Shown piece after piece: positions 7,917-38,286 of a stretch of 38,437 nucleotides of DNA. This DNA is from Deltaproteobacteria bacterium. Its GTDB lineage: Bacteria; Campylobacterota_A; Desulfurellia; JAGGSF01. Numbering within the stretch: position 1 is the first letter of the stretch; the number at the start of each line of letters is the position of its first letter. The stretch lies in contig JAGGSB010000080.1 of NCBI GenBank assembly GCA_021159305.1, forward strand, positions 1 through 38,437, read 5' to 3'. Both the position numbers and the translations under genes were made by a program. The notes beneath the pieces were generated by a model, which saw only the letters and a list, made by a program, of their open reading frames with translations, ran no database searches and was not told where the DNA came from.

Positions 7917-8150
7917 ACCCCGCCGTTTGCTGTGGGGTATCATTAGATGTCATTCCGCCCCGCATCGGTGTGCGGGGTAATATTCTTTCCTTCTGTCATT
8001 CCGTGCCTGACACGGAATCTGGAAAGAATATTAGCCTCTGGATTCCCGTTTTCACGGGAATGACACAAAACAAAGATTTGGTCGTAAAAACTGGAGGTTT
8101 TTATGACACAAATCGCAACTTTGGTCGTAAAAACTGGAGGTTTTTACGAC
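7917..8150. repeat. Mosaic palindromic repeat, family 1 copy A
   Basis: A chain of hairpins fills this gap. The segments are: a CCCC/GGGG hairpin (7917-7938); CCCCGCA/TGCGGGG (7958-7977); a 13-base inverted repeat (7978-7990 with 8021-8033) enclosing ATTCCGTG-CCTGA-CACGGAAT (7998-8018); ATTCCC-N8-GGGAAT (8042-8061); and two 27-base hairpins with arms GTCGTAAAAAC/GTTTTTACGAC and loop TGGAG (8081-8107, one mismatch; 8124-8150, perfect) spaced 43 bases apart. The block is markedly more GC-rich than its surroundings at its left end. It matches copies at 13.3 kb and 38.1 kb in architecture. The ATTCCC-N8-GGGAAT unit has the same form as the Neisseria dRS3 repeat, but homology is not implied. Confidence 0.9.
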
Positions 8151-28734: not shown

Positions 28735-29396
28735 ATATCAGCCCCCATTCTTAAAAACTTATTCCATAATGGACAATCTCTCTTCTTGAAAAATGAACAG
28801 CCCAAACATTTCTGCTCAAAATATTTGTTATCTTTTTCTGATTCCTCTCTAATCTGGCGTAAGCTTTTTGATTTACTGATAAATAAATCTATTTCGTTTT
28901 TTGTCATTTTCAGTTTTTCCAACCATTCCTGCAAAAGGTCAGCATACTCGGGATGATTTATGCTGTTGCTTTTCATGATTTTATCCTGCAAATTATATAC
29001 ACCTGTAATTTCTGTTATGTCTATTACCTGTGAAGTAAAGTGCGCCTCCACCGCTGACAAAATATATACACCGGGTTTAATTTCTTTATAATTTTTACCA
29101 TCTGTTTTGCAGTATCCAATAAGGAAATCATGATAGCCATATCGCACTCTAAACAAAAAGTACGCCATGGCATATTCCTGTATAAGCTCACTAATTTCCT
29201 CAAAGTAGAAAAGATAATCTATCTGCCCATCATTCCTATATCCCTCAAGATACGGACCATTTTCTATCTCCCCTTTTCTTCGTGGGTAACAGTGAAGAAT
29301 ATCTCTTACAATTATGCCATTTTCCTTAACAATCCTGCATCCTTCTGGGAACAACGGAAGAGGATAAAATGGAGAAGAAATCAACAGCGTTTCCAT
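28731..29396 (-). CDS. Protein of unknown function with C-terminal Cys motif
   Basis: Not recognised. It has 221 residues, soluble and mixed alpha/beta, with no obvious enzyme motif. The last 30 residues contain KCLGCSFFKKRDCPLW, a C-x2-C followed by a third Cys, which might bind zinc or an Fe-S cluster. The central part (about 75-130) is strand-rich. It is locked between dedA (16-base overlap at its start, with an AGGAG 7 bases ahead of the ATG) and the EF-G-like gene (ATGA overlap at its end), so the three are very likely translated in a coupled manner. Confidence 0.8.
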   Translation of the reverse strand: METLLISSPFYPLPLFPEGCRIVKENGIIVRDILHCYPRRKGEIENGPYLEGYRNDGQIDYLFYFEEISELIQEYAMAYFLFRVRYGYHDFLIGYCKTDGKNYKEIKPGVYILSAVEAHFTSQVIDITEITGVYNLQDKIMKSNSINHPEYADLLQEWLEKLKMTKNEIDLFISKSKSLRQIREESEKDNKYFEQKCLGCSFFKKRDCPLWNKFLRMGADI

Positions 29397-29998
29397 AAAA
29401 TTTCTCCTTTCTTATTAAAATAACAATATACCAAAATTACACCAACAATAAATGCAATTGCTGCACCTTTCCCTAAATAAGAGTGTACGACCTTCCATTC
29501 TCTACCTGCAAAATAACCTAAAAAAACATATATAGATGCCCAGCACACTCCACCTGCTACATTATATATAAGAAATGTCTTGTATCTCATATGTGCAATA
29601 CCAGCTACAAAGGGGGCAAACGACCTCAAGACAGAAGCAAATCGCCCAAAGAAAATTGTCTTTCCGCCATGATTACTAAAAAAAGCTCTTACAATACGAT
29701 AGTATTTCTCGTTGAACAAAAAATACTTCCCATATTTTATTATCACAGGTTTACCAATTTTCCGTCCTAAAAAATACCCGAAACTATCTCCTAATATCGC
29801 ACCAGATAGAGAAACAACAACAGTTAAATAGAAGTTTAGTATACCCTGCGATGCAAAAACACCGCCTAATACAACTGCCATTTCCCCAGGAACAATTAGT
29901 CCCGCAAAAGCTGATGATTCCAAAAAGGTCAATACAAATATAGCACCTTCACCGTATCGCGATACCCACTCTATTGCTGTGTTTGTCATGTTCAACAT
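29381..29998 (-). CDS. DedA family membrane protein
   Basis: Polytopic inner-membrane protein of about 205 residues. The family signature is visible: ESSAFAGLIVPGEMAVVLGG, GDSFGYFLGRKIG and FFGRFASVLRSFAPFVAGIAHM, the conserved Arg residues lying in GRFASVLR. DedA proteins are implicated in proton-dependent lipid carrier recycling, including undecaprenyl phosphate and phosphatidylethanolamine flipping. A strong promoter ends 11 bases before the ATG and no ribosome binding site is seen, so the message may be almost leaderless. A second ATG three codons later is possible. First gene of a three-gene coupled set. Confidence 0.93.
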   Translation of the reverse strand: MLNMTNTAIEWVSRYGEGAIFVLTFLESSAFAGLIVPGEMAVVLGGVFASQGILNFYLTVVVSLSGAILGDSFGYFLGRKIGKPVIIKYGKYFLFNEKYYRIVRAFFSNHGGKTIFFGRFASVLRSFAPFVAGIAHMRYKTFLIYNVAGGVCWASIYVFLGYFAGREWKVVHSYLGKGAAIAFIVGVILVYCYFNKKGEILWKRC

Positions 29999-30009
29999 CA
30001 GATGCTTTT

Positions 30010-30038
30010 ATTATAAGTGAAATATAGATTTATATCAA
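30010..30038 (-). promoter_or_regulatory. Promoter for the dedA operon
   Basis: On the minus strand TTGATA (30038-30033) and TATAAT (30015-30010) are 17 bases apart. TTGATA belongs to the end of the palindromic repeat at 30036-30064. The predicted start is only about 5 bases before the dedA ATG. Confidence 0.7.
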
Positions 30039-30064
30039 GCAATTCTGCGAAGTAGAATTGCTTG
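30036..30064. repeat. Family 2 hairpin (CAAGC...GCTTG)
   Basis: The arms CAAGCAATTCT and AGAATTGCTTG are perfectly complementary, with two further pairs around a GAA loop. In inverted reading it has the same TTTGCAAGC and GCTTGA ends as the hairpins at 31.0 and 33.1 kb. Confidence 0.85.
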
Positions 30065-31015: not shown

Positions 31016-31036
31016 ATCATGTAAAAAAATATGTTA

Positions 31037-31133
31037 CTTGACAAGCACTTTGTGCTTGCAAGTGATTTTGCAAGGCAAAATTACTTGACAAACGCGAGCT
31101 TGCAAGGGAATTCTCTAAAAGAGAATTCCCTTG
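31037..31133. repeat. Array of three family 2 hairpins
   Basis: Three different hairpins stand side by side: CAAGCAC-TTT-GTGCTTG (31042-31058); a 13-base stem around loop AAG with one G-T pair (31059-31087); and a perfect 14-base stem around loop AAA (31103-31133). The stems are unrelated in core sequence, but CTTGCAAG or CTTGACAA junctions separate or flank each. The 182-base gap between the HTH regulator and the zinc-ribbon gene is made mainly of this array plus a promoter. Confidence 0.9.
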
Positions 31134-31158
31134 ACAAATCTTGTTCACAGCCTATATT
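31131..31158 (+). promoter_or_regulatory. Promoter for the zinc-ribbon gene, -35 from a hairpin end
   Basis: A perfect TTGACA (31131-31136) and TATATT (31153-31158) are separated by 16 bases. The TTGACA spans the edge of the third hairpin and the conserved base pair following it. The leader of about 33 bases ends in AAAGGAG, 5 bases before the ATG at 31198. Confidence 0.65.
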
Positions 31159-31197
31159 GACCCTTCGGATTTTGAATAAAGTTTCAAAGGAGTGCGT

Positions 31198-31380
31198 ATG
31201 GAAGATTTAGAGGTTTTGTATTGTGGCTTCTGCCCCATTTGCAGAAGACCGGTGGAGAAAATATCAAGTGTAAAGTTTCACTGCCCTTCATGTCAAAAAA
31301 CATGGCATTTGCATGTGCCCGGTAGGAAAACGCTGGAGAGTATAGAAGATAAAGCAAAGAACTGGAAAAAAGCCTCATAA
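31198..31380 (+). CDS. Small zinc-ribbon protein
   Basis: A 60-residue protein from the ATG at 31198 (an in-frame GTG two codons earlier overlaps the ribosome binding site and is rejected). Two C-x2-C knuckles, CGFCPIC and CPSC, are spaced about 17 residues apart, followed by WHLHVP; this is a zinc-ribbon fold. The C-terminal 20 residues are charged and helical. Function unknown; the size suggests a nucleic acid- or protein-binding partner. It has its own promoter and converges with yggS, with one base between their stops. Confidence 0.8.
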   Translation: MEDLEVLYCGFCPICRRPVEKISSVKFHCPSCQKTWHLHVPGRKTLESIEDKAKNWKKAS

Positions 31381-33048: not shown

Positions 33049-33062
33049 CTGCAAAGGGTTTG

Positions 33063-33093
33063 CAAGCTCAAATCTCCTTGAGATTTAAGCTTG
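33063..33093. repeat. Family 2 hairpin overlapping the mutM stop
   Basis: A 14-base stem (one C-A mismatch) with loop CTT, ends CAAGCT and AGCTTG. Its right arm contains the stop codon and last codons of mutM. No U-run follows on either strand, so it is not a classical terminator even though it lies between convergent genes. Confidence 0.85.
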
Positions 33094-33867
33094 ACAAACC
33101 GGACAGAAATAACAACTTCTCCCTGCTATAATCTCTCTTTTAAGCTTATGATTTTTATTCCGGGGACATCTCATGTCTCTACCTCGATGAACAATGAGCC
33201 AGGATGAATCAAAATACATATTACAATCAATTGCTTCTTTTAATACCATTTTCATACTCTTGTATAGTTTTTCTCTTTGCTCTGAACCGATAGTTTCAAT
33301 ATTTTTATGAGGATTTATCTTAGCTTTAAATAATATTTCATCAGAATAAACATTTCCAATTCCGGCAATATCCCTTTGATCTAATAAAAAGGCTTTTATG
33401 TTCTTTCGCTGGTGTTTATCTAAGATTTTGAAAAAGTCCTTTTTAGAAATGGTCAAGGGTTCTGGCCCCATTTCTTTTATCAGCTTTATCTCCTCTGGGT
33501 CTTTTACTAAATAGATTTTACCTAACTTTCTTATACTAAGCCACTTAAGTTCATATCCATTCTCAAATTTTATAACGAGACGGGTAAACCTATCTTTTTT
33601 TGTTCTTTGTTTCACATAGTGCAAATCTCCTGTCATTCCAAAATGAAATATAAGTTTTTCAGGAACATCCTTAATCTCACAGATCAAAAACTTCCCTCTC
33701 CTGTTAACATCTATAAAACTTCTCCCTACAAGCTTACTCTTTAAATCTTTAAAATTTATATTTTTAATCAAATCTTTACAGCTGCATTGAACATCAGCGA
33801 TAACTTTATCGAGGGAGCTTTCCTCAAAATATGTTTTAAAAGATTCAACATCTGGTAATTCTGGCAT
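33085..33867 (-). CDS. mutM: Formamidopyrimidine-DNA glycosylase
   Basis: Removes 8-oxoguanine and ring-opened purines, then cuts the abasic site. The true start is set by the catalytic N-terminal Pro: MPELPDVE begins at 33867, giving 260 residues, although the frame runs 10 codons further. Glu3, Lys59 (RRGKF) and the helix-two-turn-helix (DQRDIAGIGNVYSDEILFKAKINPHK) are present. The zinc finger ends CPVCQ and has Arg in AGRSC, but its first ligand pair looks like C-x5-H (CPRNKNH) instead of C-x2-C. Its last codons lie in a repeat hairpin. Its upstream region holds a duplicated segment. Final gene of the damage-protection operon. Confidence 0.94.
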   Translation of the reverse strand: MPELPDVESFKTYFEESSLDKVIADVQCSCKDLIKNINFKDLKSKLVGRSFIDVNRRGKFLICEIKDVPEKLIFHFGMTGDLHYVKQRTKKDRFTRLVIKFENGYELKWLSIRKLGKIYLVKDPEEIKLIKEMGPEPLTISKKDFFKILDKHQRKNIKAFLLDQRDIAGIGNVYSDEILFKAKINPHKNIETIGSEQREKLYKSMKMVLKEAIDCNMYFDSSWLIVHRGRDMRCPRNKNHKLKREIIAGRSCYFCPVCQA

Positions 33868-33956
33868 TGTCTCTACAAAAATTCCTAATTTTTGCAAGCA
33901 ATTCTACGAAGTAGAATTGTCTCTACAATTGCAAGCTTAAATCTCTTTGAGATTTA
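33866..33956. repeat. Partial family 2 hairpins and 13-base direct repeat upstream of mutM
   Basis: The sequence ATTGTCTCTACAA occurs at 33866-33878 and 33916-33928, 50 bases apart. Between and beyond lie CAATTCTAC-GAA-GTAGAATTG (33899-33919, with a CAAG end on one side only) and TAAATCTC-TTT-GAGATTTA (33938-33956). Both hairpins have lost one conserved end, as if truncated by a duplication or deletion. Confidence 0.8.
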
Positions 33957-38108: not shown

Positions 38109-38286
38109 AAAGAATATTAGCCTCTGGATTACACCTCCTGTCATTCCGTGCTTGACACGGAATCTGGAGTCTGGATTCCCGCATTCGCGGGAATGACACA
38201 AATCATAGATTTGGTCGTAAAAATTCCCTTAAAATTTTATGACACAAATCGCAGATTTGGTCGTAAAAACTGGAGGTTTTTACGAC
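38109..38286. repeat. Mosaic palindromic repeat, family 1 copy C
   Basis: It starts with 22 bases identical to 8023-8044 (AAAGAATATTAG, then CCTCTGGATT). It then holds the hairpins ATTCCGTG-CTTGA-CACGGAAT (38143-38163), ATTCCC-GCATTCGC-GGGAAT (38175-38194), CAAATC-ATA-GATTTG (38199-38213), a GTCGTAA/TTATGAC type element (38214-38243) and the perfect GTCGTAAAAAC/GTTTTTACGAC hairpin (38260-38286). The units come in a different order and number from copy A, so the element is a mosaic. Confidence 0.88.

Follow-up and report, generated by a model that had tools for sequence, protein, structure and literature searches.

The locus raises the question of what kind of sequence can keep its ends and its fold while its interior changes freely from copy to copy. 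The window, the whole stretch of 38,437 nucleotides analysed, is one complete contig (C80) of the 1.08-Mb draft genome G000; the genomes compared with it, G001 and G002, are congeners. The original prediction listed five hairpins, and all five were found (30036-30064, 31042-31058, 31059-31087, 31103-31133 and 33063-33093), as were the partial members at 33899 and 33938. The boxes CAAG/CTTG, TTGCAAG and CTTGACAA recur, while the inner arms differ yet stay self-complementary. As had been suspected, this is not the layout of a standard REP, BIME or MITE. The best explanation, to which we assign a probability of roughly 0.6, is a family of mobile insertion elements, very small and confined to the genus.

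Hairpins of the window

A two-unit array occupies 31037-31137 of the plus strand and ends at the promoter of a small gene (31198-31380). Unit 1 consists of a hairpin of type B (31042-31058, CAAGCAC TTT GTGCTTG) and one of type A (31059-31087, CAAG + TGATTTTGC AAG GCAAAATTA + CTTG); in unit 2 a degenerate B hairpin (31089-31102, CAAACGCGAGCTTG) precedes an A hairpin with a perfect 14-bp stem (31103-31133). TTGACA (31131-31136) both closes unit 2 and serves as the -35 box, and the -10 box, TATATT, lies at 31153-31158. Single-strand DNA folding of the 102-nt array at 31037 gave z = -7.95, and none of the shuffles folded as well. A covariance model of the unit matches positions 31042-31088 within it. 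The same site holds a shorter form in G002 and, in G001, a different core at the same -35. The hairpin at 31103 shows a compensated base-pair change between G000 (GGGAATTC/GAATTCCC) and G002 (GGAAATTC/GAATTTCC).

The A-type hairpin at 30036-30064 lies on the minus strand, where it ends in CTTGATA. It supplies the -35 (TTGATA, 30033-30038) of the promoter of a VTT-domain gene (29381-29998), with a spacing of 17 to the -10, TATAAT, at 30010-30015. G002 has no hairpin at the matching site. A further A-type unit on the plus strand (33060-33097: TTGCAAG, the hairpin 33063-33093 and CTTGACAA) overlies the 3′ end of fpg, where, as read from the sequence, the codons for the terminal CPVCQ are covered by its CTTGACAA; this is thus coding sequence and not a -35 box, an exception to the promoter rule described below. 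Neither G001 nor G002 has the unit, and in both the neighbours are separated by other genes as well. Upstream of fpg, a 50-bp unit (33876-33925, plus strand) comprises a hairpin (33876-33894), the linker CAAG (33895-33898), a second hairpin (33899-33919) and TCTCTA. The direct repeat ATTGTCTCTACAA stands on both sides of it (33866-33878 and 33916-33928), and both congeners are missing the unit. It adjoins an older, partly decayed A-type hairpin (33929-33955, plus strand) that is common to all three genomes.

We note that gene content between the same neighbours varies among the three genomes exactly at hairpins (31016-31198 and 33049-33090), as if the elements coincided with rearrangement breakpoints. 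A different perfect hairpin, GTCGTAAAAAC-TGGAG-GTTTTTACGAC, occurs in two copies 30 kb apart (8123-8150 and 38259-38286). A DNA uptake sequence was considered and ruled out: in the window, four of the five CTTGACAA copies belong to hairpins and the word is not scattered through genes.

Architecture of the unit

Arrays compared side by side resolve into a single unit of two hairpins and a 4-nt linker: CAA-B core-TTG, CAAG, the A core hairpin and (T)CTTGA. The unit is about 42-48 bp long and occurs in tandem, with a common array period of 48. The B hairpin is usually 19 nt (CAA, a core of about 5 bp, a 3-nt loop, the complement and TTG, giving an 8-bp stem); the A stem, that of hairpin 2, is longer and more variable. 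The predicted scheme of constant ends and exchangeable cores stands, with two refinements. What had been taken for a spacer between hairpins usually folds into a shorter hairpin of its own (CAA-N13-TTG), which makes the unit a pair. The constant ends do recur, but most of the outer CTTGA belongs to the target, in the usual case a -35 box, with the terminal bases of the element added.

Covariation was measured on 16 aligned 48-nt units, picked for equal length. Since the structure was drawn from these same sequences, the slid control flatters the 96.3% of cells that pair, and the better evidence is the 40 double-sided changes, against 10.8 ± 3.2 in shuffles. The covariation score was 0.380, against 0.145 in shuffles and at most 0.085 for slid pairings. 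In 30 distinct 13-nt B cores, pairing summed over five positions was 4.03, compared with 2.17 ± 0.18 when partners were shuffled. The 61 units contain 45 distinct B cores, 50 distinct A cores and 58 distinct core pairs; the B and A modules thus combine almost freely.

Distribution and position at promoters

In G000, the pattern TTGCAAG-N12-40-CTTGACAA has 38 exact matches (reversed-pattern control, 0), CTTGACAA-N5-20-TTGCAAG has 39 (control, 0) and TTGACAA-N10-20-TTGCAAG has 38 (control, 0), the intervening stretches of the last being self-complementary by inspection, some imperfectly. The covariance model gave 60 matches in G000, 28 in G001 and 13 in G002, including some two-strand duplicates of one place, so that element counts are lower; 22 further genomes of the class gave no match. 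The copies in G000 are therefore many, not the few that would have spoken against the prediction. Contigs C15, C35 and C36 end inside arrays, as expected because repeats break assembly. A scan of the collection returned 31 stretches; self-complementary ones occur only in two congener MAGs and one 4-kb 'Aerophobetes' contig, and the others were judged by eye to be chance matches, mostly coding, so a wide spread of the element was rejected. The viral sequences searched for carriers gave one match, judged to be chance. The element family is genus-restricted.

On the 'Aerophobetes' contig, JAGGXI010000030.1 (4069 bp, assigned to Candidatus Aerophobetes by binning), the same units form an array close to ORFs that by eye are secD/secF-like, DUF5320-like and ArsR-like. 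Either misbinning or transfer between lineages would explain them there. Near two arrays (G000:C1 and G000:C5) lies a different repeat family, GTCATTCCCGC...GCGGGAATCC, in appearance a REP-type palindrome of the usual sort.

The final CTTGA of an array mostly occupies the place of a -35 box. A -10-like hexamer (at least 4 of 6 matches to TATAAT) lies 16-18 nt after TTGACA at 38 of 43 ends, which are not fully independent because orthologous ends were counted separately. The best -10 match averages 4.37, compared with 3.00 ± 0.15 when flanks are shuffled; other -35/-10 spacings score about 2.4-3.5. Several promoters carry hairpins in two or three species. The genes downstream of units form no evident class.

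Precise gain and loss

At CTTGA-like sites the genomes differ by exact blocks, each a unit gained or lost. At C18, G001 is empty and reads GTTTGTATTGA|TTTGCTG...TATAAT, and G000 has an additional 47 bp there with the -35 restored. Insertion regenerates the -35 at this one site and probably does so elsewhere; promoters would tolerate the unit because the box is rebuilt. Units also lie in frame inside coding genes, as 14-16 codons without conserved sequence. C61a is a 48-bp block in frame in ksgA (RrnaAD) of G000; G001 is empty and G002 differs at the site, which leaves gain or loss undecided. C87, a 42-bp block in an AddB-like ORF (PD-(D/E)XK) of G000, is most simply a gain in G000, as both congeners are empty; a second unit in the AddB-like ORF is common to G000 and G001 and absent from G002. 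At C83b there are 2, 1 and 0 units in G000, G001 and G002. C89b, at the 5′ end of an ORF that by eye is glyQ-like, has two units in G000, a shorter form in G001 and none in G002, and the C61b unit is absent from both congeners. An empty site can also arise by precise loss between short repeats; direction is therefore limited to sites where the congeners agree, and gain is argued only where both are empty (C87, C61b and upstream of fpg).

On both sides of units 4-6 bp are repeated. The element end and the target are alike, so that at most sites duplication and a carried end are indistinguishable. The unit upstream of fpg repeats TCTCTA, not CTTGA, a pattern that duplication of the target explains better than a carried end does. 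Recent transposition would predict copies, but no newly placed unit exactly reproduces one at another locus; the cores of such units recur elsewhere in the genus, at distant loci.

The position at the -35 (38 of 43 ends), the promoters that carry hairpins in more than one species and the covariation could also describe functional promoter hairpins, cis-regulatory or insulating structures selected just upstream of the -35 with their structure constrained and their sequence not. We nevertheless consider such a function an unlikely explanation of the family, since orthologous promoters can be without units (C18; 30036 in the window), units occur in frame within coding genes and at the 3′ end of fpg, and no class of downstream genes is evident.

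Replacement of the cores

The orthologous sites, and the unit next to the -35, were compiled by hand and chosen after the alignments had been seen; at 9-11 such sites in G000 and G001, median identity was 0.95 in the flanks, 0.53 in the A core and 0.54 in the B core. Random pairings of cores gave means of 0.54 (A) and 0.53 (B). For the A core the mean of 0.62 lies above the null (about 6 in 1000 shuffles), an excess owed to a few sites (C28, C50, C5) at which the core has persisted; for the B core the mean stays within its null (0.16). Replacement is the usual fate of a core, the pairing within the hairpin being preserved, and some change is compensated drift, as at 31103. Descent of the cores from one ancestor by simple drift, which would have told against the original prediction, fails at most orthologous sites.

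Fold-back copying had been offered as the mechanism. In a general form, template switching at replication forks makes and re-perfects hairpins from short inverted repeats, with no mobile element, which would agree with palindromes kept while their arms change, with tandem copies, with a linker that is the reverse complement of the flank, like an inverted copy of the target, and with loop inversion, if weak, in B hairpins (2 where 0.43 was expected, strand-controlled). In A hairpins, however, loop inversion is not significant (2 against 0.84 expected, strand-controlled). Inserted cores are not derived from the empty-site sequence, and cores recur at distant loci. The two hairpins of one unit have unrelated arms, and upstream of fpg the linker CAAG lies beside TCTCTA, so this linker is no copy of its target. 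Because complete two-hairpin units are inserted or lost, cores recur in the genus and loop inversion is weak, fold-back copying is improbable as the main process. Fold-back correction could contribute to core drift; it is not needed to explain dispersal. Small inverted triplication, which is related to the fold-back/template-switch mechanism (PMC13334657), was ruled out on account of the same unrelated arms.

Linker, target and candidate mechanism

Most units combine the linker CAAG with the flank CTTG. C83b and C87 have the linker CCAG and the left flank CTGG, one other unit has TCAG and CTGA, and C61c has TTAA(G) with CTTAA on the left. A single cut behind the fourth base of a TCTTGA-like target would account for each of the repeats TTGA (C18), TCTG (C87) and TCTTGA (C61a). 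Each hairpin of IS608 has at its base a tetranucleotide that pairs with the cleavage site, and altering this tetranucleotide redirects insertion (PMC5934647); in one TnpAREP system an altered tetranucleotide alters the cleavage dinucleotide (PMC8266576). Given this guide pairing and the match of linker and flank, a Y1-type reaction is our preferred mechanism, in which the linker would act as a target guide as in Y1/IS200-type transposition. The linker variants are few, and complementarity to the flank also just lengthens the hairpin-2 stem. The least probable of the alternatives is spread of structured modules through RNA or recombination, with hairpins merging and shuffling and no dedicated hairpin transposase: the 58 distinct pairs in 61 units would suit it, as would yeast GC42, of the same length and with short direct repeats, merger and shuffling (PMC4478555), and an RNA intermediate suggested for Allomyces elements (as cited in PMC2800124), but the defined target, and the match of linker to flank, point to specific recognition at some step.

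For the mobile-element reading, movement would plausibly proceed by a single-strand, hairpin-recognising reaction of the Y1/HUH type. The linker at the foot of hairpin 2 would find the target by pairing, in the manner of the guides of IS200/IS605 and REP systems. The enzyme would read structure plus a few foot bases, which would leave cores free to drift by compensated changes, and array turnover (insertion at a new CTTGA, deletion between repeats) would replace cores wholesale. A stronger version, which we put forward tentatively and consider possible rather than probable, is that the units, about 42-48 bp long, make up a class of elements not described before, self-masking and DNA-guided. 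The linker would pick the target by pairing, usually a -35, insertion would restore the box, and only the structure of both hairpins would be recognised, leaving the sequence free. Such units would be a bacterial counterpart of mitochondrial mobile hairpins and among the smallest mobile elements. We found no description of such a bacterial element in the open-access literature that we searched, which does not in itself prove that it is undescribed.

G000 and G002 each have one RAYT-like Y1 gene at the same place (G000:C37, L146 1462-2430; G002:C6, L145 1462-2430). Its protein contains PF01797 and a DnaA-C-like C-terminal HTH (PF08299 just under cut-off). The HUH region reads S-C-F-H, against N-H-Y-H in a relative from the class, with the first HUH histidine changed to cysteine; the motif looks degenerate and the protein is possibly domesticated. 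No units lie beside the gene. In G001 neither the gene nor its neighbouring sequence was found, which may reflect an assembly gap. Among element-free members of the class Y1 genes are frequent, and there is no phyletic link. The expected linked RAYT/Y1 transposase was thus not borne out, the gene being present in two of three carriers and away from the elements, and RAYT as a proven partner is unsupported.

Relation to known elements

The closest analogues are REP/RPE elements, mitochondrial GC clusters and double-hairpin elements. GC42 of yeast mitochondria, a palindrome of 42 nt, has short direct repeats and undergoes merger and shuffling (PMC4478555), and hairpin and double-hairpin elements are found in sponge and fungal mitochondria (PMC2800124). 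Tiny mobile palindromes, merger and shuffling of modules, short direct repeats (GC42) and presence or absence between close relatives are common to these and to the present units. The mitochondrial elements are organellar, however, and the yeast ones GC-rich; the parts of that literature consulted describe neither -35 targeting nor linker-flank covariation for them. What we find, a two-hairpin mobile unit of tens of bp with shuffling, is what characterises the mitochondrial type; the likeness is one of behaviour, and we claim no homology.

REP/BIME elements with TnpAREP (RAYT) are likewise small palindromes with a foot tetranucleotide, arranged as singlets, pairs and clusters. Their palindromes are recognised as single strands, a likeness that by analogy may extend to the present units. 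They differ in the tag, GTAG or CGTC in REP (PMC3733652) and here CAAG, rarely CCAG or TCAG. Copies of a REP family share stem sequence, whereas the cores here are unrelated between copies; here insertions also occur inside ORFs, and the Y1 gene is unlinked, with its apparently degenerate HUH, where in REP systems the RAYT gene is flanked by repeats. IS608, of the IS200/IS605 family, inserts 3′ of a tetranucleotide that a guide at the foot of the hairpin selects by pairing (PMC5934647), and here the linker matches the flank, the two changing together in a few variants; the present units, in contrast, encode no transposase, measure only 42-48 bp and repeat the target at their right end. A MITE has the terminal inverted repeats of a known transposon, for which the only candidate here is the CAA/TTG at the ends. 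Palindromic insertions in frame inside protein genes are known from Rickettsia (PMC10969869) and are shared with the present units, but RPEs are about 150 bp with a conserved peptide, as against 42-48 bp, variable sequence and most copies at promoters.

Conclusions

If this reading is correct, a sequence parasite of fewer than 50 bases persists in the promoters of important genes by targeting and rebuilding the -35 box, and this rebuilding could explain its spread at little cost. Sites caught empty, single, in tandem and with swapped cores, together with co-changed linkers and flanks, make the spread of REP-like palindromes testable. The same series makes it testable whether structure-only recognition frees the sequence of a mobile element. 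The units would also provide natural guide-target pairs for a minimal DNA-guided insertion reaction.
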